In this document: positions 3,029-45,414 of the stretch, piece by piece | Layout: each line of letters opens with the position of its first letter | Numbering within the stretch: position 1 is the first letter of the stretch | IMG/VR virus record: IMGVR_UViG_3300022707_003995 | Span: 1 to 45,414 of that record | From: a virus | Strand: one strand, 5' to 3' | Length of the DNA: 45,414 nucleotides | The notes under the pieces: model-generated | What the model was told of the DNA's origin: nothing | The model's input: only the letters and a program-made list of their open reading frames with translations | Databases searched by the model: none | Program-made: the position numbers and the translations under genes

Positions 3029-3562
3029 ATGTCTTCTGACTTTGGGTTTGAAGATATTACTCGTATTGAAATGCGAGAGGCAAAAAGAAAAGTTAATGAT
3101 GAATTAGATAAGGGAATGGAATCATACTATAACAATTTTGTAATACCTGAAATAATGAGAATATCTAAAGCATCCAATTTACCAGAACAATTCATTAACG
3201 GATTCAAATTTGTAAAAACTGGACGGAACAGGGGTAAAATCATCAATAATTGGGGAACACCTGAAAAACCTCTAGCGAAATGGTTCAACTATGGTACTAA
3301 AGAGAAAATTTGGATAGAACCAAAAACAGAAGGAGGAGTCTTGGCATTTGCATCTAAAGGACCAAGCGGAGGAAGAAACCCAAGTGCGATATTTTTCAAA
3401 GGTGCTGGAACTCCAAAAGCAGGATCTACCATATTTTCTAAAGGTCATTACATAACTGGACAAAGAGACACTCATGCTATGGAGCGCGGACTAGAATTCT
3501 CCCAAAAGTCCTTAATAAGAAATGTAATAAACGAAATACAAGAGAAACTAAATCATGATTGA
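3029..3562 (+). CDS. HK97 gp10-like tail/neck protein
   Basis: This 177-residue protein has an N-terminal helical part and then a WFNYGTKEKIWIEPK segment. It continues with a GGVLAFASKG strand and a C-terminal GHYITGQRDTHAMERGLE segment before a helix. That order (a GT turn, a charged strand, a loop, then a PG- or G-ending strand and a terminal helix) is the pattern of the HK97 gp10-like family. GGAG precedes the ATG at good spacing. It probably works at the head-tail joint or as a tail completion factor. Confidence 0.6.
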   Translation: MSSDFGFEDITRIEMREAKRKVNDELDKGMESYYNNFVIPEIMRISKASNLPEQFINGFKFVKTGRNRGKIINNWGTPEKPLAKWFNYGTKEKIWIEPKTEGGVLAFASKGPSGGRNPSAIFFKGAGTPKAGSTIFSKGHYITGQRDTHAMERGLEFSQKSLIRNVINEIQEKLNHD

Positions 3563-4055
3563 GGAAGTAAAAAATATCAATAATATAAAAAGATTTACTA
3601 AATTTATTCAATTAGATATTCTTTCTGGTTGCTGGAATTGGAAAGGAAGTTTAGCTACTAAGGGTTATGCCCAGATTAGAATCAACAGTAAAAAAATAAT
3701 GGCTCATCGTTTTTCTTATGTATATTGGAATGGTGAAATTCCACATGGATTAATAATTCATCACAAATGCAGAAACCGAAAATGTGTAAATCCTGCACAT
3801 TTAGAAGCTATAACAAATAAAGAGAATGTACTTCAAGGAATAAGCTTTTGTGCACTAAACTCAAAAAAAACCCACTGTCCACAAGGACATGAATATACGG
3901 CTAAAAATACACAACTTCAAAAATTTGGCAGAAGTTGCAAAATATGTAATCTTCAACGAGCTAAAGAATATGCACAAAACAATAGAGAAAGATGTAATCT
4001 CTCTTCAAGAGATTGGAAACGACGTAATAGAAAGAAAATGAGGTTGAAAGTATGA
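3555..4055 (+). CDS. HNH homing endonuclease
   Basis: This 166-residue HNH nuclease is clearly related to the one at 914. It has GCWNWKGS at the start, HHKCRNRKCVNPAHLEAI (about residues 74-91) as the HNH core, then HCPQGHEYT and a CKIC pair, and a basic tail. Its start overlaps the end of the gp10-like gene and its stop overlaps the next start, so it fits into the tail operon with no promoter of its own. This is how a homing gene settles without breaking an operon. Confidence 0.9.
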   Translation: MIEEVKNINNIKRFTKFIQLDILSGCWNWKGSLATKGYAQIRINSKKIMAHRFSYVYWNGEIPHGLIIHHKCRNRKCVNPAHLEAITNKENVLQGISFCALNSKKTHCPQGHEYTAKNTQLQKFGRSCKICNLQRAKEYAQNNRERCNLSSRDWKRRNRKKMRLKV

Positions 4056-4702
4056 GTGAGGAGGGGATCATCGAAATTGAGGTTGGGCTTCAGGCACGCT
4101 CTAAAGCAGAGATTGACGAGTATCTAAAAAAAGTAAATGAGATGAAAGCTGGTCTTGAAGAGGTAAGACCTGTACTAGAACAACTAGAAGAAGGAGAAAC
4201 TACTACTACTAAGAAAACTAAAACAAATAAAGAAAAAGAAGAAAAAACAGAATTCACAAAAGCACTTGAAGGACTAGACAAATCCGAAATTCAAAAAATC
4301 CGTGGAATTCTTAAAAATCCAGAAGGCTTTGCGATTGGTGGATTAGAGAAACTTCTCTCAAGATTAGGACCTAATGCTACTGTAATGCTCGGTATAGTTG
4401 GAGCTATAATTGCATCTCCAATACTGTTCATTGAAATAATGAAAAAGCTCTCTGTAAAAGGAGGACCATTTAATCGAGACTTTAGAAGATTCATCTCAGA
4501 AGAGGTAGACGTTGGACTATCTAGAGAGTTAGTAAAAATGCGAGAGTTTGGAGATCCAAACGCTCAGGTAATCTTATCACAAGGTAAAGGATGGACTTCA
4601 AATAATGAGGTATGGGTGTATAATAGTTACTTTGAAGTTAATCAATCACGTATAGCCAGAATCGGATTAGATGATAAAAGTGCAGGAGTGAGAATAGAAT
4701 AA
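4052..4702 (+). CDS. Short tape-measure candidate
   Basis: This 216-residue protein has an N-terminal charged coiled coil (about residues 15-75, with a Thr/Lys/Glu-rich linker). A hydrophobic stretch follows at about residues 108-130 (VMLGIVGAIIASPILFIEIM), then a mixed C-terminal domain. A coiled coil plus a hydrophobic segment between tube and distal-tail genes is where the tape measure sits. If so it is very short, since siphovirus tape measures usually exceed 600 residues. Using the usual 0.15 nm per residue, the tail would be only about 30 nm. The start overlaps the HNH stop. Confidence 0.45.
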   Translation: MSEEGIIEIEVGLQARSKAEIDEYLKKVNEMKAGLEEVRPVLEQLEEGETTTTKKTKTNKEKEEKTEFTKALEGLDKSEIQKIRGILKNPEGFAIGGLEKLLSRLGPNATVMLGIVGAIIASPILFIEIMKKLSVKGGPFNRDFRRFISEEVDVGLSRELVKMREFGDPNAQVILSQGKGWTSNNEVWVYNSYFEVNQSRIARIGLDDKSAGVRIE

Positions 4703-8355: not shown

Positions 8356-8570
8356 GTTCCTGTGTCCCCTTCGATTTTACTTAAACGTGTTTGAAGATCT
8401 TTGATTTTTTCATCATGATCATATATTCGCTCTCTGTCTTTGAACCAAGACTTACCCATCCAGCACAGCAACACGATAAGGCTCTGACTGTTAAAATTAG
8501 GCTCACAAAGTTTTTCAAGTAATTTTAAGAATCTGTCTCTTTGTTTTCGTAATTCTTCGATTTTTGTCAT
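8352..8570 (-). CDS. Small coiled-coil protein, minus strand
   Basis: This 72-residue charged protein begins MTKIEELRKQRDRFLKLLEK. It has two heptad-like helical stretches around a hydrophobic middle (SLIVLLCWMG) with Cys residues. It fills a region between two plus-strand tail genes that would otherwise hold only a promoter. The A/T-rich segment at 8590-8600 could drive both strands. It may be an early or regulatory protein, since it runs opposite to the virion operon. Function is unknown. Confidence 0.6.
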   Translation of the reverse strand: MTKIEELRKQRDRFLKLLEKLCEPNFNSQSLIVLLCWMGKSWFKDRERIYDHDEKIKDLQTRLSKIEGDTGT

Positions 8571-8589
8571 TAATCGCTATCACAAAATC

Positions 8590-8626
8590 CCTATAAAAGC
8601 ATAATCTTAATTATTGAGACTTTGAA
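8590..8626 (+). promoter_or_regulatory. Virion promoter, copy 3 (37 bp identical to 1464-1500)
   Basis: CCTATAAAAGC plus CTTAATTATTGAGA, identical over 37 bp to the copy at 1464. The ATG of the fibre gene follows 8 nt after the end of the match. Perfect conservation 7 kb apart, in a genome with little other intergenic similarity, marks it as functional. Confidence 0.78.
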
Positions 8627-8634
8627 GATTTATC

Positions 8635-10965
8635 ATGTCTGCTCGTCACCCTGGGTCTATCTCTACTAACCAAAAACAATCCGCTCAAGACATTAGACTA
8701 AATTATTATGAAGGTGGGAAAATTGCCTCATTACAGTCCATATCACCTGCTCAGACATTTTCATTATTATCTCATGGTCCTACTGCTAATGCTGGCACTA
8801 CACATCCTGTATTGTATCCTTTTCTCATAATATCTGGTGCAGATATAATTGATATTAGTCTTAGCGGAACATACGCTCGTTATTCGAATATCTTACTAAC
8901 TAGCGATAATACTACAATTAACTTTACTAACCTAATTCAAAATCGAATTATTAAATTCACACTGGATATTACAATTGATACAGCTACATTCAACTCTCTT
9001 ACTTTTAATCCCACTATTGAGAATCTCCCGACACTACCTACTGAAATTGGAGAAAGATACCTATTAGAAATTACAGCCTATAAAACGGCAACAGAGGAAA
9101 CATATTTCGTTACAGGGGGAACTTTAGGAGGTGATGGTGGTGGTGGTGGAGGAGAAGGACTATCTGAACCAGTACAATTAACATTTAATGAAATAACTCC
9201 ACAAACTTTACCAACAAAATCAACTATTGATGCAGGAATTAGCAACGTACATCACATAATAATAGATAGAGACATTGAATTTGAAATTATTAATCCTCCT
9301 CCTATATCAAAGGAAGAAGGATTAAGAATAATTATAGACATTGATGGTACGGGTGGGTATGCTTCACCAATATGGCCGCCAAGTTTAGCAAATCCTCCAG
9401 AAATTCCAACTACAGCTAATACGAGATTTACAGTTGTATTATACACAATAGATGAAGGAATCATTTGGACTCATGCCACCAGTGTTGGAAGTTCTAGTTC
9501 AGGTGGAATAACTGCACTTTCAGCATTAGACATTGATGTAAACAAGAATTGGCAAGCTCAAGGAATTGCTAATGTTGGTGCATTAACTGGTGTTACTGGA
9601 ATTGATATGGATGGTGCCGCCCCATTAATTCAAGGAGTAGACAAAATAGAATTTCTTCAAGCTGGTCAATCTATACAAAATAAAGCAGACCCTAATGGTG
9701 GATTACTATATGGTGTGGCTGCTGTACAATCTCACATATTTCTAGCAAATCTAATTGAGATAGCAAGATTTGAAGAAGCTGCAGCAGGAGTATATCGATT
9801 AGAGATGCTTGGTCATTCCATTAGAGATGCACGAGACATTACATTTGCTTCTTCTTCTGGTACAAATGTTTTTGCAGGAAGTTCACCTGCAATAGGATAT
9901 GATTCTATTCTTTCTAATCTTGTGATAAATTTTCCATTTAGTGCTAAGATTGTTATTAGTGAAAATAATATTATAGGCTCCGCTGAAATTAAAAATAATG
10001 AATTTGCGGCTGATCTACTAACTGCAAATTCAAGTTTATTGATTGGACTTTTAGGAGGAGCACCTACAGTTTCAGGGCAATTCACAAATGATGGAACAGA
10101 CACGCTTGTTTTTTCAGGTGGTTCAGTAAGAAACCTATCAAATATTGGAGTAGTTGCTGGCGGTGCTGATGTATTTCTCTCTAATTTATCAAATCCTACA
10201 TCAATTAATCAAAATCTAATACCACAAGCAGGTAAAACATTAGGCGATTCAGGAAATCTATGGAGTGCCATACATGTAAATAATTTAAGACTAGGTACTG
10301 CAGGAGTTATTAGTTCATCTGATAATCAAATTATTGGCACCACATCAGGTATTGATTTTAACATTCCTTCAGGGATTGGAGCAAATTACGAATTTTTAAC
10401 AGGTGGTTCTACTGTTGGAACAATAAGTGATAGTGGTACTATTAATTTTCCATTCGCAATAATTAATATTGCAATAAGTTTAGGTGATGCTGTTTCTTTT
10501 CCAGGAAATAATGGTGACATGTATAGAGAAGGTGCAGACGTCAAGATAGTTTCTGGTGGGATAGAGCGAAACATTAGTGATTTAACAGGTCTAGGAGCTA
10601 ATGTTAATCTCTCAAATCTTGCAAGCCCAACAGCTATAAATCAAGATTTAATTCCAAATGGTTCTTTTGAGTTAGGTTCATTTGCTGATAGATGGAATAC
10701 ACTGTATGTCCAATTCCTTGATGTAACTAATACTGCTATATTTGGCGGAGATGTTATTTTAGGAAATTCTGTTGATGATGATATATCTTTTAACGGTCTT
10801 GCTATTACTGATTTAAGTTTTAACTTAAGTGCTACAATAGATTTTAATATATCTCAATCTTTTGCAAATTCTGGTTCTGGAAGTGCTTTACCTGCTTTAC
10901 CTCAAACTTACATACGAATAAAACAAAGTGGTGGGTTTTTATTTATTCCAGCATATCTAGGTTAA
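8635..10965 (+). CDS. Tail fibre
   Basis: This 776-residue repetitive, low-charge protein is typical of trimeric phage fibres. A glycine hinge (GGDGGGGGG, about residue 168) separates the N-terminal part from the shaft. Two copies of a common phage fibre repeat lie at about residues 513-556 and 659-702 (LSNLSNPTSINQNLIP and LSNLASPTAINQDLIP). Each is followed by LG and W-x-x-x-x-V. The N-terminus likely anchors to the hub encoded just before. It has its own promoter, identical to the one at 1464. Confidence 0.8.
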   Translation: MSARHPGSISTNQKQSAQDIRLNYYEGGKIASLQSISPAQTFSLLSHGPTANAGTTHPVLYPFLIISGADIIDISLSGTYARYSNILLTSDNTTINFTNLIQNRIIKFTLDITIDTATFNSLTFNPTIENLPTLPTEIGERYLLEITAYKTATEETYFVTGGTLGGDGGGGGGEGLSEPVQLTFNEITPQTLPTKSTIDAGISNVHHIIIDRDIEFEIINPPPISKEEGLRIIIDIDGTGGYASPIWPPSLANPPEIPTTANTRFTVVLYTIDEGIIWTHATSVGSSSSGGITALSALDIDVNKNWQAQGIANVGALTGVTGIDMDGAAPLIQGVDKIEFLQAGQSIQNKADPNGGLLYGVAAVQSHIFLANLIEIARFEEAAAGVYRLEMLGHSIRDARDITFASSSGTNVFAGSSPAIGYDSILSNLVINFPFSAKIVISENNIIGSAEIKNNEFAADLLTANSSLLIGLLGGAPTVSGQFTNDGTDTLVFSGGSVRNLSNIGVVAGGADVFLSNLSNPTSINQNLIPQAGKTLGDSGNLWSAIHVNNLRLGTAGVISSSDNQIIGTTSGIDFNIPSGIGANYEFLTGGSTVGTISDSGTINFPFAIINIAISLGDAVSFPGNNGDMYREGADVKIVSGGIERNISDLTGLGANVNLSNLASPTAINQDLIPNGSFELGSFADRWNTLYVQFLDVTNTAIFGGDVILGNSVDDDISFNGLAITDLSFNLSATIDFNISQSFANSGSGSALPALPQTYIRIKQSGGFLFIPAYLG

Positions 10966-17575: not shown

Positions 17576-18481
17576 ATGGAATTAAAAGCATTTCACAATA
17601 ACCCACAAATTCAAAAAGAGCTTCTAGACAGAGTTCAAGGTCATTATGATGCTGATGAAATTATTCATGGTGTTTATTGGGAAAATGGTAAAGGTTGTGC
17701 ATATGGTTGTATGACACATTCTAGTAACCATAAAGATTTAGAATTATTGTATGGGATTCCAGAATGGCTCGGTAGATTAATAGATGTTTTGTTTGAAGGA
17801 ATGAATAATAAATATTCTAAAGAATTTGTTCTTGATTTTGCAAAGACAGTATGTAGCCCATCTTTTTTAGGTTTTGATAACTGGCAGTATATTTATCATC
17901 AACTGTGCATCTTTTTTTTATCTAATGTTTGTAGAAACATAGACCATCCCATAGTAAAACAAGTTATCTCTGACGTTATAATTTTACATAAAACAAAAGA
18001 ACAAAATAAAGAAAAATGGTCTACTGCTAGGTCTACTGCTAGGTCTACTGCTAGGTCTGCTGAGTCTGCTGCTAGGTCTGCTAGGTCTGCTGCTGAGTCT
18101 GCTGAGTCTGCTGAGTCTGCTGCTTGGTCTGCTGAGTCTGCTGCTAGGTCTGCTAGGTCTGCTGCTTGGTCTGCTGAGTCTGCTGCTGAGTCTACTGCTG
18201 AGTCTGCTGCTTGGTCTGCTGAGTCTGCTGCTAGGTCTGCTAGGTCTGCTGCTTGGTCTGCTGAGTCTACTGCTAGGTCTGCTGAGTCTACTGCTAGGTC
18301 TGCTGAGTCTGCTGCTAGGTCTGCTGAGTCTGCTGCTAGGTCTGCTTGGTCTGATTGGTCTGCTGAGTCTACTGCTGAGTCTGCTGCTAGGTCTGCTGCT
18401 AGGTCTGCTAGGTCTGCTAGGTCTGCTGCTTACAAATCAATTGCAGATAAACTCTTAGAATTATTAAGAAATAAATCATGA
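17576..18481 (+). CDS. Ser-Ala repeat protein
   Basis: This 301-residue protein has an N-terminal domain of about 145 residues. It includes GYGIPEWLGRLIDVLFEGM-like sequence (IPEWLGRLIDVLFEG at about residues 61-75) and a conserved GKGCAYGC stretch. It continues with about 137 residues of S-A-R, S-A-E, S-A-A-R and S-A-A-W units and a closing helix (KSIADKLLELLRN). Alanine-rich repeat proteins with this same N-terminal domain and closing helix are widespread in phages, function unknown. The repeat would form one long helix or coil. DNA of the repeat is nearly all TCTGCT plus AGG/GAG/TGG, which favours slippage. Confidence 0.8.
   Translation: MELKAFHNNPQIQKELLDRVQGHYDADEIIHGVYWENGKGCAYGCMTHSSNHKDLELLYGIPEWLGRLIDVLFEGMNNKYSKEFVLDFAKTVCSPSFLGFDNWQYIYHQLCIFFLSNVCRNIDHPIVKQVISDVIILHKTKEQNKEKWSTARSTARSTARSAESAARSARSAAESAESAESAAWSAESAARSARSAAWSAESAAESTAESAAWSAESAARSARSAAWSAESTARSAESTARSAESAARSAESAARSAWSDWSAESTAESAARSAARSARSARSAAYKSIADKLLELLRNKS
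18116..18268. repeat. 66-bp duplication inside the Ser-Ala repeat
   Basis: The unit at 18116-18181 recurs at 18203-18268. It encodes SAAWSAESAARSARSAAWSA and two or so residues more in both copies. It sits on top of the 9- and 12-bp repeat pattern that runs from 18019 to 18432, and shows recent recombination or slippage. Confidence 0.75.
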
Positions 18482-21138: not shown

Positions 21139-21215
21139 TAACCTAATTTTTTGTTATAAAAATACATTAGATTATATGCGATCAGTTCCTAGTAGATGAT
21201 ACGGGAATAAATACA

Positions 21216-21339
21216 CACGCCAAGCCCCTTTGGTAAGGGACCTGACGTGCGAGAACCCCTGAAGGCTCTCTGTATGACAACCAAGTTCCCAGACAAATTG
21301 CTTAGAAATGAATAAGGAGTTTATTCTTAGTTGCCATAC
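21216..21339 (+). ncRNA. Structured RNA candidate
   Basis: Four paired elements in a row in the only long non-coding stretch on the plus strand. CACG/CGTG (21216-19 with 21246-49) encloses a CCCTT-TGGT-AAGGG hairpin. GAGA/TCTC pairs 21251-54 with 21267-70. A long stem GTATGaCAAC/GTTGcCATAC (21272-81 with 21330-39) encloses a GAATAA-GGAGT-TTATTC hairpin. G+C is locally much higher than around it. CTGA occurs twice, as in box D motifs, but no clear box C was found. Strand is unproven. It could be a leader of the gene at 21478 or a free viral RNA. Confidence 0.6.
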
Positions 21340-23813: not shown

Positions 23814-23968
23814 AACAAGGAAGAAATCCTTGTCTGGGTTGTGGTTGTAATATTGGTGGTTCTATAGATTATTCCTATTGCTCATTATGTAGTGATAACA
23901 AATGTGATAAATGCGGTTTAATGGGTGTCAAAAGTGATCTATGTTTTCATTGTAGGGAAAATAGATGA
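23810..23968 (+). CDS. Eight-cysteine zinc microprotein
   Basis: A 52-residue protein with Cys at CLGCGC, then YCSLC, CDKC and CFHC, enough for two zinc sites. ATGA overlaps join it to both neighbours. Confidence 0.7.
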   Translation: MKQGRNPCLGCGCNIGGSIDYSYCSLCSDNKCDKCGLMGVKSDLCFHCRENR

Positions 23969-24711
23969 CTAACAAAAATTACAGAATTGGCGCATCCTTT
24001 GAAAGAAGATTTGTTAATGAACTACTCAAAACAGGAAAGGCGATTAAAGCTAATAGATTTTATGCGTCTAAAGGGATTGCTGATGTTTACTGGCTAGACA
24101 AAAATGGCACATATCACGAAGCTCAGCTCAAATATTCTCATAGTAAACCATACATCTCTCCTCAAGAAAGAGAAAGAATTATACAATATGCGGAAAAATT
24201 CCCTCAAATTACAGTTTGGATTATTCTAAAATCATATAGAAAAGATGCAATATGGGAAAAGATCAACACTTTTCCAATTTACAATTTTTTAACACATGTC
24301 AAAGTTCTTCATAATGGTTGTTGGGAATGGACAAGTGTTCTTAACCATAAAGGATATGGTAATGTGAAGGTAGTTGGATTTTCAACAAGATTATCTCATA
24401 GAATTATGTATGATTATTTCTATGATGATTTAGATCCTAATTTAACAATAGATCATCTATGTCGAAATCGGGCATGTGTAAATCCCATTCATTTACAGCA
24501 AGTTACTATGCAAGAAAATCAAAAAAGAGGGTTAGTAAACCAATACAAATACGCCACACATTGTATTTCTGGCCACCCTCTTTTTGGGGATAATCTTACG
24601 ATGCAAAAAAGAGGTCAAAGAATGTGTAAAATATGTCATAGGATTTCTGATAAAAAATATAGAGAAAAACAGTCACGAAAACCACAAACTATGGAGAAGA
24701 TAACACTATGA
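23965..24711 (+). CDS. Hjc-like Holliday junction resolvase fused to an HNH nuclease
   Basis: This 248-residue protein has two nucleases in one chain. Residues 5-100 follow the archaeal Hjc layout: IGASFERRFVNELLKTG with Glu13, RFYASKGIADVYW with Asp40, AQLKYS with Gln54/Lys56 (Hjc has Glu-x-Lys), and an IISPQ-type helix start (ISPQERERIIQYAE). Residues 101-240 are an HNH enzyme like those at 914 and 3555 (GCWEWTSV, then DHLCRNRACVNPIHL, HCISGHPL, CKIC). The homing gene seems to have entered near the resolvase end and become its C-terminal domain. Whether both parts are active is open. Confidence 0.8.
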   Translation: MTNKNYRIGASFERRFVNELLKTGKAIKANRFYASKGIADVYWLDKNGTYHEAQLKYSHSKPYISPQERERIIQYAEKFPQITVWIILKSYRKDAIWEKINTFPIYNFLTHVKVLHNGCWEWTSVLNHKGYGNVKVVGFSTRLSHRIMYDYFYDDLDPNLTIDHLCRNRACVNPIHLQQVTMQENQKRGLVNQYKYATHCISGHPLFGDNLTMQKRGQRMCKICHRISDKKYREKQSRKPQTMEKITL

Positions 24712-25819: not shown

Positions 25820-25956
25820 TGGGATTCTCACATCTAAACCAATCACACCTCTCAAAGAAACATTACTCTTCTAATTGTGTTGGGTATCGTCATAAGAGAT
25901 GTAAGGGATTTCGAGGACATCTCAAAGAAAAATGTGAGTGTGAATGTCATAAATAG
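25819..25956 (+). CDS. Cys/His-rich microprotein overlapping the methyltransferase start
   Basis: This 45-residue protein is rich in His and Cys (NCVGYRHKRCKGFRGH and CECECHK). It starts in the TAATG overlap with the zinc-ribbon gene and ends 23 nt inside the methyltransferase frame. Its existence argues for a methyltransferase start near 25934 rather than at the GTG at 25877. Confidence 0.6.
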   Translation: MGFSHLNQSHLSKKHYSSNCVGYRHKRCKGFRGHLKEKCECECHK

Positions 25957-27580
25957 ATCTATTTTAGAAGGGGATGTGCTAGACAAGCTCAAAGAGATTG
26001 ATGATAATAGTATAGATTTGATAGCAACTGACCCACCATACGGTTATTCTATGATGAATAAGAATTGGGACAAGGCAGTTATCTCAGTTGATATATGGAA
26101 AGAATGCCTGCGAGTGTTAAAGCATGGTGCATTTGCATATATTATGTCAGCACCAAGACAAGACGTATTATCTCATATGATAGTTAATTTATCCGATGCA
26201 GGATTTAAGACTGATTTTACGTCAATTTATTGGGCGTATGGAGTTGGATTTCCAAAAGCTATGAATATACAAAAGGCTATACGCAAGAGATATGAGACAT
26301 CCAAATCACGAATGCAAGACTTGTGGAAAATCTCTCTACATCAAACCGAAATATTACCAAAAAATCAAGAATACGACTGGAGGATTATGTCGGAAATGCT
26401 GGAAGATTTGGAACACAAAAAACAATACGAAATATTTGCATACTCCCGAAGCCAAATTGAAAACTTACAGATTTCCCAAAGGCAAAAAGAATATTTCTTG
26501 GAAAGGGGGCATAACATACAAGAGAGCCAAGGGGAATTATACAGGTGTCAAATATGTTCGATGTCCACAGGAGTTTTTGTTAATGGGAAGAAAAGATGGA
26601 TATGTAATGGAACACAGATTAGTAATGGCAAAATATCTTGGGAGATTATTAACGAGGAAGGAAGTAGTTCATCATTTGAATCACAAACCACAGGACAACA
26701 GAATACAAAATTTGAAGTTATTTGCCAACAATGCACTACACAAAAAATGGGAACACTCAAAGGTTCATACGCTGGATTCCAACCAAAACCCGCAGTCGAG
26801 GTAATTCTGGTATGTATGAAACCACTCTCCGAGAAAAACTATACAGAGCAGGCTATGAAAAATGGAAAAGGGATTACATGGCTTGATGATTGTAGGATTC
26901 CATTTCAAGGCGATAATGACTGCAAACCCTACGCATCAAGATTAAATTTTAATAAAAATCTTAATGATGATAATTGGAATAAGATAGGAATTCATGAACC
27001 AAAAACGACAAACCAAAAAGGCAGATTCCCAGCAAATCTCCTCGTATCAAATGATGCACTAAATGATGGTAAAACTCATAAAACTGGCGGAACAGCAAAT
27101 AAACAATACAATGTTTCTGGTAGTACATTTAGTGATGCTGCAACGGTTACACAAACTGTCTCTGATGAAGGTTCTTTCTCACGATACTTTGATTTAGATG
27201 CGTGGGAGGCACAATTTATCATCACACCAAAACCATCTAAATCAGAGAAAAACAAGGGATTAGACAACTTTACAGAGGCACAAGTTAATGATGGTAGAAA
27301 TATCCCACCTGATAACACCTTTCAACGTGGTACAACACAAAGAAAAAACACACACCCAACCGTAAAGCCAGTATCACTATTCAAGTATCTAATAACTATG
27401 GGTAGTAGAGAAGGGGATTTGATACTTGACCCATTTATGGGAAGTGGTACTACAGCTATAGCGTGCGAGCAGATAGCAAGAAAATGGATAGGCATAGAGA
27501 AAAATCCCGAGTATGTAGATATATTCAAAGCCAGATTGGCAGATTATATAAATCAAAATAAGATGGAAGAGTTTCTATAA
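25934..27580 (+). CDS. DNA N4/N6 methyltransferase carrying an HNH insertion
   Basis: This beta-class amino-methyltransferase has motif IV DPPYGYSMMNKNWD near its start, then VGFPKAMNIQKAIRKR. After an insertion come GSYAGFQPKPAVEVILV, ITWLDDCRIPF, HPTVKPVSLFKYLI and the SAM-binding LDPFMGSGTTAIACEQ near the end. It transfers methyl groups from SAM to adenine N6 or cytosine N4. About 155 codons between KRYE and TLKGSYAG (about 26290-26760) do not look like methyltransferase and coincide with an HNH gene in another frame, yet this frame has no stop. GTG at 25934 (or 25940) is my preferred start. The target site is unknown. Confidence 0.85.
   Translation: MSVNVINRSILEGDVLDKLKEIDDNSIDLIATDPPYGYSMMNKNWDKAVISVDIWKECLRVLKHGAFAYIMSAPRQDVLSHMIVNLSDAGFKTDFTSIYWAYGVGFPKAMNIQKAIRKRYETSKSRMQDLWKISLHQTEILPKNQEYDWRIMSEMLEDLEHKKQYEIFAYSRSQIENLQISQRQKEYFLERGHNIQESQGELYRCQICSMSTGVFVNGKKRWICNGTQISNGKISWEIINEEGSSSSFESQTTGQQNTKFEVICQQCTTQKMGTLKGSYAGFQPKPAVEVILVCMKPLSEKNYTEQAMKNGKGITWLDDCRIPFQGDNDCKPYASRLNFNKNLNDDNWNKIGIHEPKTTNQKGRFPANLLVSNDALNDGKTHKTGGTANKQYNVSGSTFSDAATVTQTVSDEGSFSRYFDLDAWEAQFIITPKPSKSEKNKGLDNFTEAQVNDGRNIPPDNTFQRGTTQRKNTHPTVKPVSLFKYLITMGSREGDLILDPFMGSGTTAIACEQIARKWIGIEKNPEYVDIFKARLADYINQNKMEEFL
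26292..26804 (+). CDS. HNH endonuclease nested in the methyltransferase gene
   Basis: This 170-residue protein lies in a different frame from the methyltransferase that contains it. It has an N-terminal zinc ribbon (CKTCGKSLYIKP and GLCRKC), then ISWKGG and GYVMEHRLVMAKYLGRLLTR. It closes with EVVHHLNHKPQDNRIQNLKLF, the HNH core of a group distinct from the 914/3555 type. It ends about 45 nt inside the resumed methyltransferase sequence. It has no visible promoter, so it must be translated from the methyltransferase mRNA by internal initiation. Confidence 0.85.
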   Translation: MRHPNHECKTCGKSLYIKPKYYQKIKNTTGGLCRKCWKIWNTKNNTKYLHTPEAKLKTYRFPKGKKNISWKGGITYKRAKGNYTGVKYVRCPQEFLLMGRKDGYVMEHRLVMAKYLGRLLTRKEVVHHLNHKPQDNRIQNLKLFANNALHKKWEHSKVHTLDSNQNPQSR

Positions 27581-31861: not shown

Positions 31862-31944
31862 ACAAGTACGGTACTTATCATAACTTCAAGAGATGGAGTA
31901 CGGTACTAGAATGGATAGTTAATAGTAAGGGGGTGTTTTTGTGA
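31858..31944 (+). CDS. Micropeptide bridging to the terminase gene
   Basis: A 28-residue frame (starts MNKYGTYHNFKRWSTVLEWI) between two overlaps: its ATG in the preceding stop and its TGA over the GTG of the terminase ATPase. Its main role may be translational coupling. Confidence 0.5.
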   Translation: MNKYGTYHNFKRWSTVLEWIVNSKGVFL

Positions 31945-32999
31945 GTTATGCTAAAATCAGCCAAAGTGCAGCACAGTTTAAGAAAAATTCAGAGATACTT
32001 GAAAAAGCATTGGAGAAAGCCTATAACAATCTCTCAGACTTTGATACATTACATCTACCAAAGTGTGAGACAGAAGATATACAATCATTCTACGAAGAGT
32101 TAGACTGCCCATTCTTTAACTCAGAGACTAAAATGCAAGTGTCACAATTAGCAGATTTACAGTTAGAAATTTGGAAACTCCACAAGAAATTCAAACTAAT
32201 CATACTTTTAAAGTCACAAAAAATAGGCATATCCTCATTATGTATTCTAATCACTCTATGGCACGCCCTAACTGACTGTATGGGAATGGAGTTAATCATT
32301 AATGCACAATCAGATGAGCAGGCAAAATCACACGCTCAAGATTTGAGGAGAATCATTGGTAATAGTGTGCGGTATAAGGATTACCTCATCTCTAAATCCT
32401 ATGCATCAATGGGATTATTAAAAGATGAAGTAACCAAAGTACACACAATCTGGTTGCACAATCCAAATAATCCACGAACTCCAACTAAGATAATAGTAGT
32501 AGGAATGTCTCAAGGTGCATTACTATCTCATAAGAGAGTAGGCTTTATCTGGTCATCAGATAGTACCATATCTGAACTAACAACAGAAAGAAAAAAGGCT
32601 GTATGGGCTGCAATGCTATCAAGACGAGCAAATACACGAGGACCTGTAATTGTAGAATGTCCTGCTCGCTCACCTGATGGACCAGTATATGATGCATTTG
32701 AGAGATACAACAAACAAATAGAACAAAAAGAAGAAATCTCCAAAATTAATGACTTTCACGTGTTCAAGTTTACATATGAAAGAGGCATACAAGACGGGTT
32801 TTTTGATAAAGAATTCATAGAGGCTGAGAAGCGTATTCATGGCCCACTATTTGGTACCTTCTATAATGCTGACTTTTACGCATCTGGTACTACTTGGTAT
32901 ATGGCTAGTATGCTGAAAAATAGTTCATCTGAAGCTACAGATCTATTTTTTGCATTTAATACTAATGATGATATAATTAGTGACGTGAGTGAGAACTAA
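31941..32999 (+). CDS. terL: Large terminase, ATPase part
   Basis: This 352-residue protein has the ATPase half of a phage packaging motor. The adenine-binding LQLEIW (about residue 73) is followed by a Walker A variant KSQKIGISS (91-99) and a Walker B-like strand VGFIWSSD (200-207), which lacks the usual acidic pair. The coupling-motif region follows. It ends at TAA right after the ATPase domain (LFGTFYNADFYASGTTW), where other large subunits continue into the nuclease. Start is GTG, overlapping the micropeptide stop. The nuclease part lies 455 nt downstream. Confidence 0.8.
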   Translation: MSYAKISQSAAQFKKNSEILEKALEKAYNNLSDFDTLHLPKCETEDIQSFYEELDCPFFNSETKMQVSQLADLQLEIWKLHKKFKLIILLKSQKIGISSLCILITLWHALTDCMGMELIINAQSDEQAKSHAQDLRRIIGNSVRYKDYLISKSYASMGLLKDEVTKVHTIWLHNPNNPRTPTKIIVVGMSQGALLSHKRVGFIWSSDSTISELTTERKKAVWAAMLSRRANTRGPVIVECPARSPDGPVYDAFERYNKQIEQKEEISKINDFHVFKFTYERGIQDGFFDKEFIEAEKRIHGPLFGTFYNADFYASGTTWYMASMLKNSSSEATDLFFAFNTNDDIISDVSEN

Positions 33000-33208
33000 T
33001 GAATTGGTGTATATTAGGACATTCAACAAAAACTCTAAGAGGAGTGATATTTTGTAAAAGATGTGGCTCTCCGTTTGAATCTCTACATTTAGCATATTAT
33101 ATCATCTCCAGAAAAAAGCATACAGATTGGGTAAACAAGAATTACTATACACGATGGAGAATGGCAGATGTAGAAATGACAAGAGAAGAATACGAGGAAT
33201 TTCTATGA
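32999..33208 (+). CDS. Zinc-binding protein inserted in the terminase locus
   Basis: A 69-residue protein with WCILGHSTKT and IFCKRCGSPFES, a likely single zinc site, and a helical acidic end. Start overlaps the ATPase stop (TAATG). Such C-x-x-C-G proteins with a CxxGH start are common in actinophage and archaeal virus genomes. It separates the two halves of the terminase. Confidence 0.7.
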   Translation: MNWCILGHSTKTLRGVIFCKRCGSPFESLHLAYYIISRKKHTDWVNKNYYTRWRMADVEMTREEYEEFL

Positions 33209-33209
33209 T

Positions 33210-33395
33210 ATGGTCCAAGAATGTAAGGGAATATGTGTAAATATCAAACAAGTAAATCTACGCACACCATTTAGAAAGTATTGCAGCACTTGTTCTTACT
33301 TTATAGTTACTGATGATGTAAACTGTTTCTGTTGTAAGAGAAGGTTTAGAGTATCTAGAAGGTACTCTACACTAATGAGGAGAAAGAGAATATGA
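33210..33395 (+). CDS. Thaumarchaeal-type C-x-GIC zinc protein
   Basis: A 61-residue protein with ECKGICVNIK, KYCSTCSYFI, CFCCKRRFR and a basic tail, a relative of the gene at 29188. It follows the previous stop by one base. It is the second zinc gene between the terminase halves and may be a mobile or recently duplicated cassette. Confidence 0.75.
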   Translation: MVQECKGICVNIKQVNLRTPFRKYCSTCSYFIVTDDVNCFCCKRRFRVSRRYSTLMRRKRI

Positions 33396-33453
33396 TAACT
33401 CTAATATCTAGAAAAATATTAAGAGATAAGAGAAATTGGAGGTGATGTAAAAC

Positions 33454-34247
33454 GTGGAAAAATCTAACTATGTGAAAAATGTAAATCCTACTTCAATAGT
33501 TGGCTTTTTCCACGGATAGGAATTGATGTGGCAAGTCAAAATGACTTTTACGTTGATATAATCCACGCACTGACATCAAAGCCCAAAATTACACCACAAG
33601 CACCAAAGGATAGACCTGTTTGGATTCCATTTTTGGCATCCATATTTAGAACTCACCATCGCTCACCTGATGAAATAATAGACATGCAGATTAAACTATT
33701 CAATAAATTCCCTCCAACTCTCGTAAAAATTGACACAAGTCGAGAGGACTTTCTAACTAGTGCATTAGTTAGAAAATATGGAGAGTCCACTATTATTCCA
33801 GTCAGATTTCTAAATTCGGGATCATCTAACACAAAATATCAACTAAAACAGAGAGGCTTTTCATATTTAGATGCAGGGTATGAGTGGCCTGATGTGAATA
33901 TACTAGAAAAAACACAGCCTAGATTCGCAACACTCATTAAAATTCTAAAAAAAGAGATGCTACATGAACAAGTCAAATACACAAGTAACGAGCGAGTTAC
34001 TTTTGATCATCCAATAGGTAAACATAACGATATGGTACATGCATGGGAGTTATCACTAGATGCTGTAATGGAGTTTCAGCAAAAGAATCTAGGATATGAA
34101 AAGATAAAGCCAGAAAGATCAGAGTTTAAGACAATGAATGATGAAATATACAAGGACTATCCTACAGAGGAGATAAAGGATAATTCAATATATGATCAGA
34201 TAGACATGCATGGAATTAATAACCTGCCTGATGAAAGAGGTTTTTAA
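33454..34247 (+). CDS. terL: Large terminase, nuclease part, with a -1 frame change
   Basis: RNase H-fold nuclease of the packaging motor: GIDVASQND (first catalytic Asp), VKIDTSRED and KHNDMVHAW (last acidic site). The first Asp codon (33525) lies upstream of the only ordinary in-frame start, GTG at 33528. A GTG at 33454 stands 7 nt after GGAGGTGAT and reads NPTSIVGFF before a TAG at 33517. A shift of -1 at the T5 run (33505-33509) joins this to PRIGIDVASQND. Either programmed slippage or a one-base assembly error explains it. The C-terminal 60 residues are acidic. Confidence 0.7.
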
Positions 34248-38924: not shown

Positions 38925-40724
38925 TTGAAAACAAAAAAACAGACGATAAATACTAGTGGCTCACTTAAAGAGGATATAGAAGCACTAAAACAGCCACGCT
39001 TAGACTTTTATTCGTTAGAAAAGAAAGATGACTTTGATTTCTTTCCATCTCTTGAGAACTCTAGTCTTGGAACTAAAGAAGGTAAACTCATTGCACAACT
39101 AAAAAACGGTAGTTATATGGCTCAAATGGCTCCAATTGAATATGAAGCAGAAGTTATTGGAACAAAACACAAGAAACTAAAATCAGCTAAACCTGCATCA
39201 GATGAATATACTGCATCTAGAGACTCTTGGGAGCAGCTAGATGCCGAAGCTATGGTGGAACTACAAAAAACTACTACAGCCCGAAGTAGATTACAAATAA
39301 TTATGGAGCAATTCAAAGCTCCAAATATTCCAGTCAGACCGCGATATTATCATAATCCATATCAATACTTTGATCATATTTTATTTTCAGATCAATACGT
39401 AAACGGATTTGCTGGAACTGCAATAGATACTTTTGCAGATTTTATTATGCCAAAAGGACTTAAACCCATACTGAAATTACGTCATCCAGAAGAACACGGA
39501 GACAAAGAAGCACAACAAAAACTACTCAAAGCCAACCAAGAGATTATTTCAAAACTAGAGGCAGTAGATAACTGGTATTCAGATTTATCCGTACATGAGA
39601 ATGACCCATTTATGGATATTCCATTACAGCAAAAATGGAAAGCACAAATTATTAACATGCTAACATTTGGACGAGATGCAATGGTGTTTGAAAATTGGAA
39701 ACACCTAGATCCTGTTACTATAGAAAATGACGAATACAGAGGATTACCAAATGTTACAAAACTTTTGCAACCTATTGATATGGGAATGATTGAGATTGAT
39801 GATTACACTTGGAAATTAGGTGGAATCTATGTACATAACGATAGATCATTTTTCCCAGCTAGTCAAATGTTATACATGGTAAATCAGTATCAGAGTCCGT
39901 TAATTGGCTCAATGCACTATGGTTATTCGAAAATACAGCGAGCTCTTGATCCAGGTAGATTACTACGAAGAATTTTTGCTAAAAATTATCAGCAATACAT
40001 CCGTTCATCTTATGCTGGTATGGGCATGTTTACATTTGATAGTACAGGGTATGATGAGGACATAAGAAAGAAACTACGTACTGCAATTAAAAATTCTTGG
40101 GTTGCTGGAGAAATTGGAGTAATTGATTATGCCAACATTAAAGATTTAGAATTTCATCAATTCAACATTAATACAAACCTTGGAGATTTACAATCTTTAC
40201 AAGAACAATTAATCAAAGTAATTATCGGAGTTATGGGAATTCCACAATCTCTAATATTTGATGAAGCAGCAGCAACTCGAGCTACACTGGTAGGTAGAAT
40301 AGTATCATTTCTTAATAATCAAATAACTACATCACGAGAACAAATAACAGCACAAATATCTCAGCAATGGTATAATAGAATATTTAGAACTATCTATGCT
40401 GGCAATGGTAACAAAGATATTTTAGAAAAATTTTACATTGACTGCCAATTCGAAGAACAAGAATTAGAAACCAAACTTGAAAAAATAGGTAGACTAATAC
40501 AAGAAGAACAACTCGCCCCAACTACTCTAGAGTATAAAGGTGAACAACTAAACGATGATGATTATTTGGAACATGTTGATATGGACAAATTAAAGCAACA
40601 AGAAAAAGAAAAAGCAATGGGTCAGCAAAGTAAAAACATGTTTGGTAATAAAGGACCAAGTAATCAATTTTCAGTTACAGATTCTAGCACTGGTCAAAAT
40701 ATCAAAGTCTCAAAGGATGAATAA
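38925..40724 (+). CDS. Portal protein
   Basis: This 599-residue protein starts at TTG. The sequence shows a portal core: a helix-rich N-terminal clip, a YGYSKIQRALDPGRLLRRIF region, GVMGIPQSLIFDEAAATRAT as the crown/stem junction typical of portals, and a Gln/Glu-rich C-terminal tail. It forms the dodecameric ring for DNA entry. It lies between the fibre cluster and the minor head gene, with overlap (TAATG) to the latter. TTTAAATATTAAAG and TTATAAAATAAAG upstream give the promoter. Confidence 0.75.
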   Translation: MKTKKQTINTSGSLKEDIEALKQPRLDFYSLEKKDDFDFFPSLENSSLGTKEGKLIAQLKNGSYMAQMAPIEYEAEVIGTKHKKLKSAKPASDEYTASRDSWEQLDAEAMVELQKTTTARSRLQIIMEQFKAPNIPVRPRYYHNPYQYFDHILFSDQYVNGFAGTAIDTFADFIMPKGLKPILKLRHPEEHGDKEAQQKLLKANQEIISKLEAVDNWYSDLSVHENDPFMDIPLQQKWKAQIINMLTFGRDAMVFENWKHLDPVTIENDEYRGLPNVTKLLQPIDMGMIEIDDYTWKLGGIYVHNDRSFFPASQMLYMVNQYQSPLIGSMHYGYSKIQRALDPGRLLRRIFAKNYQQYIRSSYAGMGMFTFDSTGYDEDIRKKLRTAIKNSWVAGEIGVIDYANIKDLEFHQFNINTNLGDLQSLQEQLIKVIIGVMGIPQSLIFDEAAATRATLVGRIVSFLNNQITTSREQITAQISQQWYNRIFRTIYAGNGNKDILEKFYIDCQFEEQELETKLEKIGRLIQEEQLAPTTLEYKGEQLNDDDYLEHVDMDKLKQQEKEKAMGQQSKNMFGNKGPSNQFSVTDSSTGQNIKVSKDE

Positions 40725-42898: not shown

Positions 42899-42920
42899 AA
42901 AGTGATTTACATTATCTATG

Positions 42921-42945
42921 AATTTAAAACATGTTATTATATACA
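42921..42945. promoter_or_regulatory. Divergent promoter for the RHH and scaffold genes
   Basis: TTTAAA (42923-42928) serves the minus-strand RHH gene at 42898. TTATTATATAC (42934-42944) lies about 28 nt before the scaffold ATG at 42968. Both distances fit archaeal TATA boxes of leaderless transcripts. Confidence 0.6.
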
Positions 42946-42967
42946 ATTTCACCATTTGCACTATTAC

Positions 42968-43693
42968 ATGTCAACTCTAGAAGAACTCCATTCTAAGGTA
43001 GAAGAACTCACTGCTCAAGTAGACGAGAAAAAAGATGAAGTTAAAGATAAAGATGCAAAGCATAAAGCCGAAATGGACGAAAAAGAGAAAGAACACAAAT
43101 CTGCCATGGATGAGAAAGAGCATGAAGAGAAAGAAGCCATGGATAAAGAAAACGAAAAACATGAATCTTCCTACAAATCTGTATATTCTAAAATGAAATC
43201 CGCTATGGAAGAAGAGACAGACGAGAAAAAGAAAGAAGGAATGAAAGCAGCTCTTAAAGCCATGGAAGAAGAGCATAAAAAAGCAGATATGAATAATCCT
43301 AAAGAATATGAAAGAAAAGGTAAATCTGCAGAAGACGAGAAAAAAGAGAGAGAACATGAAGCACAAATTACTTACTTAACAGCACAAATTATTACACCTA
43401 AAATTAATCAATTAGAAATATTATACAAAGCCTCTAAAACACCAGAAGCCAAAATAAAAGAATACAAAGCACTATGGGAGAAATCAACTGGTTTACAATT
43501 AGACGCTGAAATCGAGAAAATTTCAGGAATACTCGGAAGTACACTAGATACTATATATGAAGCTCAAAATTCAGCATTTGGATTTAGTACCACAAGTTCA
43601 CTAAAGAAAAACCATCAATTTGATGCATCTAAATTTTCTACTAAAATTGATAAAATGTCAGACTCACAATTATTTAATACGGGGATTAACTAG
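42968..43693 (+). CDS. Capsid scaffold protein
   Basis: This 241-residue protein has residues 1-130 made of Lys/Glu/Asp/His-rich coiled coil with repeated K-E-H and M-D-E-K units. A second helical part and a C-terminal segment NHQFDASKFSTKIDK follow. Long coiled coils just before the decoration and capsid genes are typical scaffold proteins. QFDAS also occurs in the capsid protein N-terminal region (residues 100-104). The ATG at 42968 is preferred over an upstream start because of the TATA position. Confidence 0.75.
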   Translation: MSTLEELHSKVEELTAQVDEKKDEVKDKDAKHKAEMDEKEKEHKSAMDEKEHEEKEAMDKENEKHESSYKSVYSKMKSAMEEETDEKKKEGMKAALKAMEEEHKKADMNNPKEYERKGKSAEDEKKEREHEAQITYLTAQIITPKINQLEILYKASKTPEAKIKEYKALWEKSTGLQLDAEIEKISGILGSTLDTIYEAQNSAFGFSTTSSLKKNHQFDASKFSTKIDKMSDSQLFNTGIN

Positions 43694-44161
43694 ATGCCGG
43701 TAGCACTTACAGATAATTCAGTTAGATTCCCAACTGGATTCGCTCCTTGGTACGTCTATAAAGTAACTCTAGTAGCATCCCCAAATGCTTTTGAATACGG
43801 AGATATTCTTTTAGCAGATGTTTCTGGTACTTTTGATTTAGATAATTCAGCAGGTCCATTAGATCTTGATTTATCAGGTGGTTATGCATTTGCATTAGAG
43901 CCATTTGTAACAGGAATGACCGAAGTTCAAGTAGCAGTACCAGGTTCTGTATTTCCAGCAATTGCTGAAGCAAACTTACAACCTGAATCCCTTGTTGTTG
44001 TGAGTTCTACAGCAGGTGCACAAACTATTGCTCAAGGAGTGATAGCCGATATTCCACTAGGTACAATTTTAGGAAGATTTAGAAATCATCACTTTAATAA
44101 TGAAATTCTTAGATTACCAGCAGTAAATGACATTATCAATGTATTAACGGGGATTATCTAA
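43694..44161 (+). CDS. Head decoration protein
   Basis: This 155-residue beta-rich protein, low in charge, starts directly after the scaffold stop and overlaps the capsid ATG (TAATG). YVYKVTLVASPNAFEYGDIL and IADIPLGTILGRF are like the outer-capsid cement proteins placed just before the capsid gene in many tailed phages. Likely trimeric and on the capsid exterior. Confidence 0.65.
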   Translation: MPVALTDNSVRFPTGFAPWYVYKVTLVASPNAFEYGDILLADVSGTFDLDNSAGPLDLDLSGGYAFALEPFVTGMTEVQVAVPGSVFPAIAEANLQPESLVVVSSTAGAQTIAQGVIADIPLGTILGRFRNHHFNNEILRLPAVNDIINVLTGII

Positions 44162-45414
44162 TGCAAACTTTAACCTTTTTCCCTAAATCTGAAGTAGCCT
44201 ACTCTGGTAGTGCCTTGGATATTAACAATATTGGTATGCAGTCAGAATGGGTAGCATCCTTTAAGAGAATTGAAAAAAGTAGCAAAGTCTTTTCAGCAAT
44301 GAAAAAAGGTGAAGAGACTGCAAACCTCGAAGAACTAAACGCATTACTTAATCCTAGAGTAGGATACCAAATCGATGAGGTTCGAGAAGAACTCTCTGCA
44401 ATGAAGAGAATTGAAACCAAAATGGATGAACTTCGAAAACGTTCTCATGGTAGAATGCAATTTGATGCATCTGTCTCAGGTGAGATGCAATCACTACAGG
44501 GTCAGTATGATGCTGTAGCAAATTCAGATAACATAGATCAAGTCACTATTGTACAATTTGTAAATGAAATTGTAGGTAAACTAGAACAAGCCTCATACAT
44601 TGCAACTGCATTCAAACATATCGCACTAGATAGACTAAGAGGAAAAATCCCTGAAGCTGGATGGCCTGCTGTAAATGTTCAAGTATCTAGATTATCTGAG
44701 CCAGAAATTCAAAACACAGAATTCGGTCAGATTGAATTCAGGATATTTAGAAATGATATTCCAATTTACATTTCTAGAGAAGATCGGATGGAGGCAACTA
44801 TTGATCCATTCGCAGTATCAATAGCCCAAGGAAGAGAGCAACTATTCAGAGCAAGAGAATTTTTAGCACTCAAAGCATTATCAACTCTTGTTTACGCAGG
44901 AGATGGTACATACGGAGAACTTCCAGACTTTACAGCAACTGGTACAGAAGGAGTTCCTCACGCTACTAATGATGGTCCTAGAGCCTTGGTTAATGTCGTA
45001 TTATCTCACTATAATCTCTGGTTTAACAATATCAAGTATTTCATCTGGAACCCACTAGATTACAGAGATTACTTGAGCAATTGGTTCTCCTTTGCATATG
45101 CAAAACAGGAAGCACCAAAAGGCTATGGAGTAGTTCCAATGAGAGGCCTTGAGGAATGGGGATGTGTAGCTATCATATCGCCCTATGTTCCAGCAGGATT
45201 CGTTTATGCTCTTACTACAGAGGGAGCCTATGAATTAGATGGCCCTTATATTGTGGATTCAGAATATGATGCAAAGAAATTTGCAGATTTCAATATCGTG
45301 CATGACTTTATCGGGTTTGTGATTCAACATCCAGAAAGATTCGGTGAAAAGTTGCAGATAACCACTTCACCAAGTGGTACAGAAATCACTACTCTCACTC
45401 AGATAGTTGACCTA
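44161..45414 (+). CDS. Major capsid protein (HK97 fold), N-terminal 418 residues
   Basis: The 435-residue product continues at 1-198 across the circular junction. Residues 1-115 are helical and charged, a delta-like scaffold domain (EVREELSAMKRIETKMDELR). Residues 118-134 (AVANSDNIDQVTIVQFV) match the protease motif and should mark the cleavage zone. From about 135 on the sequence looks like the HK97 shell: AFKHIALDRLRGKIPEAGWP (N-arm/E-loop zone), IYISREDRMEATIDPFAVSI (spine helix zone), ALSTLVYAGDGTYGEL and WFNNIKYFIWNPLDYRDYL. The mature form would be about 310 residues. Confidence 0.85.
   Translation, partial: MQTLTFFPKSEVAYSGSALDINNIGMQSEWVASFKRIEKSSKVFSAMKKGEETANLEELNALLNPRVGYQIDEVREELSAMKRIETKMDELRKRSHGRMQFDASVSGEMQSLQGQYDAVANSDNIDQVTIVQFVNEIVGKLEQASYIATAFKHIALDRLRGKIPEAGWPAVNVQVSRLSEPEIQNTEFGQIEFRIFRNDIPIYISREDRMEATIDPFAVSIAQGREQLFRAREFLALKALSTLVYAGDGTYGELPDFTATGTEGVPHATNDGPRALVNVVLSHYNLWFNNIKYFIWNPLDYRDYLSNWFSFAYAKQEAPKGYGVVPMRGLEEWGCVAIISPYVPAGFVYALTTEGAYELDGPYIVDSEYDAKKFADFNIVHDFIGFVIQHPERFGEKLQITTSPSGTEITTLTQIVDL
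45271..45414. repeat. Direct terminal repeat, right copy
   Basis: Identical to 1-144. It shows that the true genome length is 45,270 bp and that the window opens inside the capsid gene. Confidence 0.97.

Follow-up and report, generated by a model that had tools for sequence, protein, structure and literature searches.

A putative large terminase divided between two genes, with a candidate ribosomal hop in its nuclease gene, in a viral genome from IMG/VR

The putative packaging nuclease gene of the virus studied here is interrupted just before the codon for its first catalytic residue, where five extra bases after codon 21 (Gly) put the catalytic Asp out of frame. We consider the chances about even that ribosomes hop forward over these bases to produce a functional nuclease, a reading that comes from the nucleotide sequence and its alignments. 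More tentative, and in our judgment rather doubtful, is the wider proposal that this probably archaeal virus depends on a hairpin-driven 5-nt stop-hop (GGA-UAG-GGA) to make its packaging nuclease, and that its relatives have repeatedly gained micro-insertions, likewise bypassed, at the catalytic-Asp codon, where they guard against homing endonucleases. Such a site would be the first archaeal ribosomal bypass, and a miniature, recurrent counterpart of the cassette in T4 gene 60.

We analysed a 45,414-bp virus record from IMG/VR (the window), which carries identical 144-bp direct terminal repeats (1-144 and 45271-45414). It has the gene order of a tailed virus, including a portal (38925-40724), a scaffold-like gene (42902-43693), and a capsid protein gene that starts at 44161 and continues across the record ends. 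Because the capsid gene crosses the ends and the terminal repeats are identical, the record is probably a complete circular or circularly permuted genome. The host is likely to be an archaeon, judging from two weak hints: the appearance of the secreted proteins and a domain resembling Hjc.

Direct searches of the window proteins against phages and viral contigs found no relatives except for a weak match to a jumbo-phage terminase (E 0.2). Relatives were reached in IMG/VR only by way of a tail protein, which led to genome G001 (IMGVR_UViG_3300005253_000040), and a degenerate HND-VH-WE motif, which led to G002 (IMGVR_UViG_3300038548_000545) and G003 (IMGVR_UViG_3300023284_002908), and the clade comparisons cover these three genomes and the window. 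Judged by the overall similarity of their other genes, the four genomes form two pairs, the window with G002 and G001 with G003. GTDB scans found no relatives, and two Parafrankia matches in them were taken to be chance matches to a degenerate pattern. PDB sequence searches gave no meaningful match.

Large terminases (TerL) of Caudoviricetes (PHROG 675) have ATPase and RNase H nuclease together in one gene, whereas the window clade has two genes. In the window, the ATPase half of a divergent large terminase (31941-32999, plus strand, 352 aa) is recognised by homology and weak PHROG matches, and it ends where the original prediction had placed it. The other half is an RNase H-type nuclease gene (33454-34247, plus strand). 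The ATPase is 60-69% identical to the ATPase genes of the three relatives and carries a Walker-A-like motif, KSQKIGISS, that is invariant in all four genomes; its Walker B motif is atypical (FIWSSD, not ending in Asp-Glu). The acidic residues of the nuclease occur in GID, KIDTSRED, and KHNDMVHA, and the Asp of GID, KID(T/S)SRE, and KHND are likewise invariant across the four. The Walker-A-like motif and the acidic GID, KID, and HND motifs resemble those of Caudoviricetes TerL. Terminase profiles PHROG 675 and 4914 matched the ATPase half weakly (E 0.03-0.2), and the two halves correspond to successive parts of the PHROG 675 profile (positions 45-131 and 381-454 of 576), with E values (0.07-0.2) that fall well short of confident thresholds. 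AlphaFold models built on alignments of the four sequences were of low quality (pLDDT 36 for the nuclease, and 42), too low for the fold to be confirmed. The putative TerL identity is drawn from motifs, gene order, and weak profile matches rather than from structure.

ATPase and nuclease are separate genes in all four genomes, with 0.5 to 3.4 kb between them. The same separation throughout indicates with high confidence that the split is real and is an old trait of the clade, and for the same reason the two-chain packaging motor suggested by the original prediction is well supported as a reading of these gene arrangements. Comparison to relatives with one-piece terminases had also been suggested; G001 and G002 supplied intact nuclease reading frames, but the terminase is not in one piece in any of the three relatives. 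A two-chain large terminase would be a useful system for studying the coupling of ATPase and nuclease activities. An Rfam scan for an intron in the window and the related loci examined gave no match, each half has its own start, and five or seven bases cannot be an intron, so the suggested spliced ATPase-nuclease mRNA was rejected. A split intein was also set aside, as Pfam scans of both halves had no intein match.

The genes between the halves vary among the four genomes, with one small zinc protein constant. In the window there are two small Cys-rich ORFs on the plus strand, as predicted: one (32999-33208) with no counterpart seen in the three relatives, and the zinc protein (33210-33395; CKGxC...CxxC...CxCC), found between ATPase and nuclease in every genome. 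Its counterparts in the ORF lists are at 8490-8672 of locus L005 (G001), 2681-2890 of L026 (G002), and 4245-4427 of reverse-complemented L027 (G003), and it may be a packaging partner. In G001, an HNH gene lies directly upstream of a nuclease gene that has no insertion. In G003, an HNH_3 gene unrelated to that of G001 occupies the same position, and the nuclease gene has an insertion. The window itself has no HNH gene at the ATPase-nuclease junction. The HNH genes of G001 and G003 show that this junction is visited by mobile genes. Neither a lost mobile element, as suggested earlier, nor splicing is needed to account for the split because each half has its own start.

The nuclease gene opens with a strong Shine-Dalgarno sequence, GGAGGTGAT (33438-33446, plus strand), and a GTG start at 33454, both as originally described. 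The GTG frame closes after 21 codons, which gives a 5' stub, MEKSNYVKNVNPTSIVGFFHG, followed by TAG (33454-33519, plus strand), and the remainder of the nuclease ORF is in the -1 frame (GIDVASQND..., 33519-34247, plus strand; 55-60% identical to the intact relatives). Its first ordinary start, GTG 33528, is just past the Asp of GID and would drop this first catalytic residue, again as predicted. A frame break before the catalytic Asp is thus real, but it is not at the T5 run (33505-33509) where it had been placed. That run is absent from the three relatives (TTCTTC, TTCTTC, and TTCTTT there), while the stub's GFFHG is conserved in all of them. Intact G001 and G002 read ...GFFHGIDPAT... without interruption. 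The window reads GGC TTT TTC CAC GGA TAG and then, five bases out, GGA ATT GAT GTG (GIDV). Alignment to G001 shows five extra bases in the window between His-Gly and Ile-Asp; the native frame is kept through CAC GGA (33511-33516), ATT GAT is at 33522-33527, and the lesion is at 33514-33521.

A break at this place is not confined to the window. G003 reads GGA TTC TTC CAT GGA ATT GTG AAT AGA CCC, with seven extra bases at the same codon pair; it keeps GFFHG and needs the opposite single-base phase to the window. Each pair of genomes (window and G002; G003 and G001) contains one broken and one intact nuclease gene, and since the two insertions also differ from each other, they look independent. 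A second genome broken at the very same codon pair, with all other conserved genes in frame, goes beyond chance. Our confidence is high that the insertion, as read from these alignments, is real, recurrent, and site-specific.

The candidate hop site, GGATAGGA (33514-33521, plus strand), was located by alignment to G001 and is the only copy in the window. It consists of a take-off GGA (33514-33516), UAG (33517-33519), and a landing GGA (33519-33521), all on the plus strand. TAG terminates only 7 of the 62 plus-strand ORFs of the window. In the proposed mechanism, the ribosome would stall with the stop UAG in its A site while peptidyl-tRNA-Gly is on GGA. A hairpin would form as the start-codon region pairs again with bases immediately behind the P site; this would push the ribosome forward, and the tRNA would re-pair five bases downstream, on the identical GGA. 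The product would read ...GFFHG-IDVASQND..., with NVNPTSIVGFFHGIDVASQNDFYVDIIHALTSK as the predicted junction peptide. A displacement of +5 restores exact co-linearity with the intact relatives. The GGA/GGA match is weak on its own, since a tandem-type insertion yields matched codons automatically. Read-through of UAG was rejected, as it leaves the ribosome in the wrong frame. The main weakness of a common hopping mechanism is the G003 site, which has no cleanly matched take-off/landing pair (AUU to AUA only) and no stop directly after the Gly codon. With lower confidence than for the hop, we propose that free-standing HNH homing endonucleases may target the site, which would explain its repeated micro-insertions; endonuclease cutting as the source is a reasonable but unproven idea.

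A hairpin is predicted at the nuclease start. Its 5' arm, CGTGGAAAAA (33453-33462, plus strand), holds the GTG start codon, and its 3' arm, TTTTTCCACG (33505-33514, plus strand), contains the T5 run and reaches exactly as far as the first base of the take-off Gly codon. The window nuclease start folds more strongly than shuffled sequences (z -4.2 for 171 nt, z -5.9 for the 5' part). G003 has an equivalent stem, CATGGAAGAG/TTCTTCCATG, at the homologous place and also ending at the Gly codon. Two of the 10 pairs show compensating changes between window and G003 (G-C/A-U and A-U/G-C), one becomes G-U, and the CATGG core of the stem is nearly self-complementary. Stems of at least 10 bp end at a given base at 0.43% of positions in the window and 0.37% in G003, and the intact genomes have stems of only 4 and 6 bp at this place. 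In a ranking of coding-strand segments by folding energy, for which segment size was picked after the first fold was seen, the site is in the top 0.11% in the window, 3.5% in G003, 13% in G001, and 33% in G002. Intact G001 folds this region moderately, with the Shine-Dalgarno sequence paired to the same Phe-Phe-His codons. Control of initiation is a possible alternative role for the hairpin. A hairpin that abuts a shift site and refolds attenuates -1 shifting and stimulates +1 shifting, also on 70S ribosomes (PMC6321510).

The insertions could instead be genuine but inactivating, as footprints of endonucleases or slippage hotspots in defective variants whose nuclease is supplied in trans or absent. 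Plain termination at UAG would leave a 21-residue stub with the predicted C-terminus NVNPTSIVGFFHG. We regard inactivation as possible but on the unlikely side. The frame-breaking insertions differ in length and sequence at one conserved site, HNH genes adjoin the nuclease gene in G001 and G003 with several more elsewhere in the window, and G003 has no obvious recoding site, all of which inactivation would accommodate. It would also mean that, of four assembled genomes, two have lost an essential gene and yet keep all their other conserved genes unbroken, and it leaves the hairpin in both broken genomes as a coincidence. The downstream protein is conserved, and Tajima tests found no acceleration of the downstream nuclease sequence in broken versus intact lineages, which fits either continued function or recent lesions, and is uninformative about decay if the lesions are recent. 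There is a slim chance that one contig or both contain an assembly or sequencing error. Both are single metagenome contigs, but two separate IMG metagenome records have non-homopolymer insertions, of 5 and 7 bases, at the same codon pair, and these genomes have no other frame break; about 18 other conserved genes are unbroken across them, which makes poor sequence quality unlikely. The T4 or T6 homopolymer error considered by the original prediction conflicts with the homologous GFFHG reading and would not explain G003.

Programmed frameshifting had been suggested as a possible means of making the nuclease, and a need for recoding remains plausible, but the specific -1 shift at T5 is improbable in our view. 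Slippage at C UUU UUC (33504-33510) would give ...GFF-PRIGIDVA, with the predicted tryptic peptide NVNPTSIVGFFPR, and would retain the catalytic Asp; the site is U-rich, and a stem-loop is predicted at 33519-33570, starting about 9-11 nt downstream. This heptamer is not of the X XXY YYZ type, however, and tRNA-Phe would mispair on CUU. The U run belongs to the hairpin stem and is missing in relatives, homology has the following CAC GGA read as His-Gly, and the product would be two residues longer than the relatives in the first strand (PRIGID). Moreover, the 5' abutting hairpin is of the kind that attenuates -1 shifting (PMC6321510), and G003, which needs +1, would go unexplained. Re-initiation on a non-standard AUU/AUA Ile codon after the break, giving a nuclease that starts at the catalytic Asp, is the least credible explanation. 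The window UAG is two bases before AUU GAU, as this would require, but the first core beta-strand (GFFHGI) of the RNase H fold would be lost, the incoming G003 frame has no stop near the site, and conservation of GFFHG in the stub would be needless.

In T4 gene 60, take-off and landing codons are both GGA, UAG comes right after take-off, and a 5' stem-loop is thought to be the motor (PMC5009743); the window has a counterpart of each, with the stem-loop a predicted one. It was mobA that split gene 60, and the 50-nt insert of the gene may have shielded it from being cut (PMC5009743, PMC2988022). In both the T4 gene 39-60 split and the window, a gene is in two chains, and the downstream gene carries a short insertion near its beginning (codon 46 in T4, codon 21 in the window). 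T4 has an HNH endonuclease gene just upstream of the downstream gene, as do G001 and G003 but not the window. The gap is 50 nt in T4, compared to displacements of 5 nt in the window and 7 nt in G003, and the stop directly 3' of take-off is found in the window (UAG) but not in G003. Spacing from the 5' stem-loop to the P site also differs between T4 and the window, and the stub MEKSNYVKNVNPTSIVGFFHG has no KKYK of the T4 nascent-peptide type. Gene 60 encodes a topoisomerase, while the window gene encodes part of a putative terminase. Another known terminase gene has a short coding gap thought to be bypassed, as proposed in the window, but that case is tied to host decoding of UUA and not to a split gene.

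Very few genes are known to use natural ribosome bypassing. The available text of a review on archaeal recoding names only one demonstrated archaeal -1 case and lists bypassing without an archaeal example (PMC8211752). As described there, archaeal -1 frameshifting (Saccharolobus fucA; haloarchaeal tailed viruses) likewise joins two out-of-phase frames in an archaeal setting (PMC8211752). Unlike those cases, the window has no standard slippery heptamer, and the shift would be forward in both broken genomes if hopping is right. Close relatives offer intact and interrupted versions of one gene, the sites are very short, and there is no ambiguity about the products predicted; it can therefore be tested directly whether a few inserted bases and a 5' hairpin are enough to cause hopping, and whether the insertions are driven by homing endonucleases.

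The clade is rich in HNH genes, and several occur in the window away from the terminase. Two free-standing HNH_3 genes (914-1444 and 3555-4055) are located amid virion genes and belong to the same Pfam family as the HNH gene adjoining the nuclease gene in G003. At 23965-24711, an Hjc-like (Holliday junction resolvase) N-terminus and an HNH_3 domain are fused in one ORF. A DNA methylase ORF (25877-27580, 567 aa, N6_N4_Mtase) wholly contains an HNH_3 ORF in the +1 frame (26292-26804, 170 aa, E 1.7e-7) and remains open across its whole length (dual coding); the HNH gene seems to occupy a variable part of the methylase without closing the methylase frame. The strongest local RNA fold in the window, about -38 kcal/mol in 76 nt, is on the minus strand at 21169-21279, just upstream of a pentapeptide-repeat gene. 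The ORF at 17576-18481 has an extended low-complexity repeat region of the SARSAAES type.
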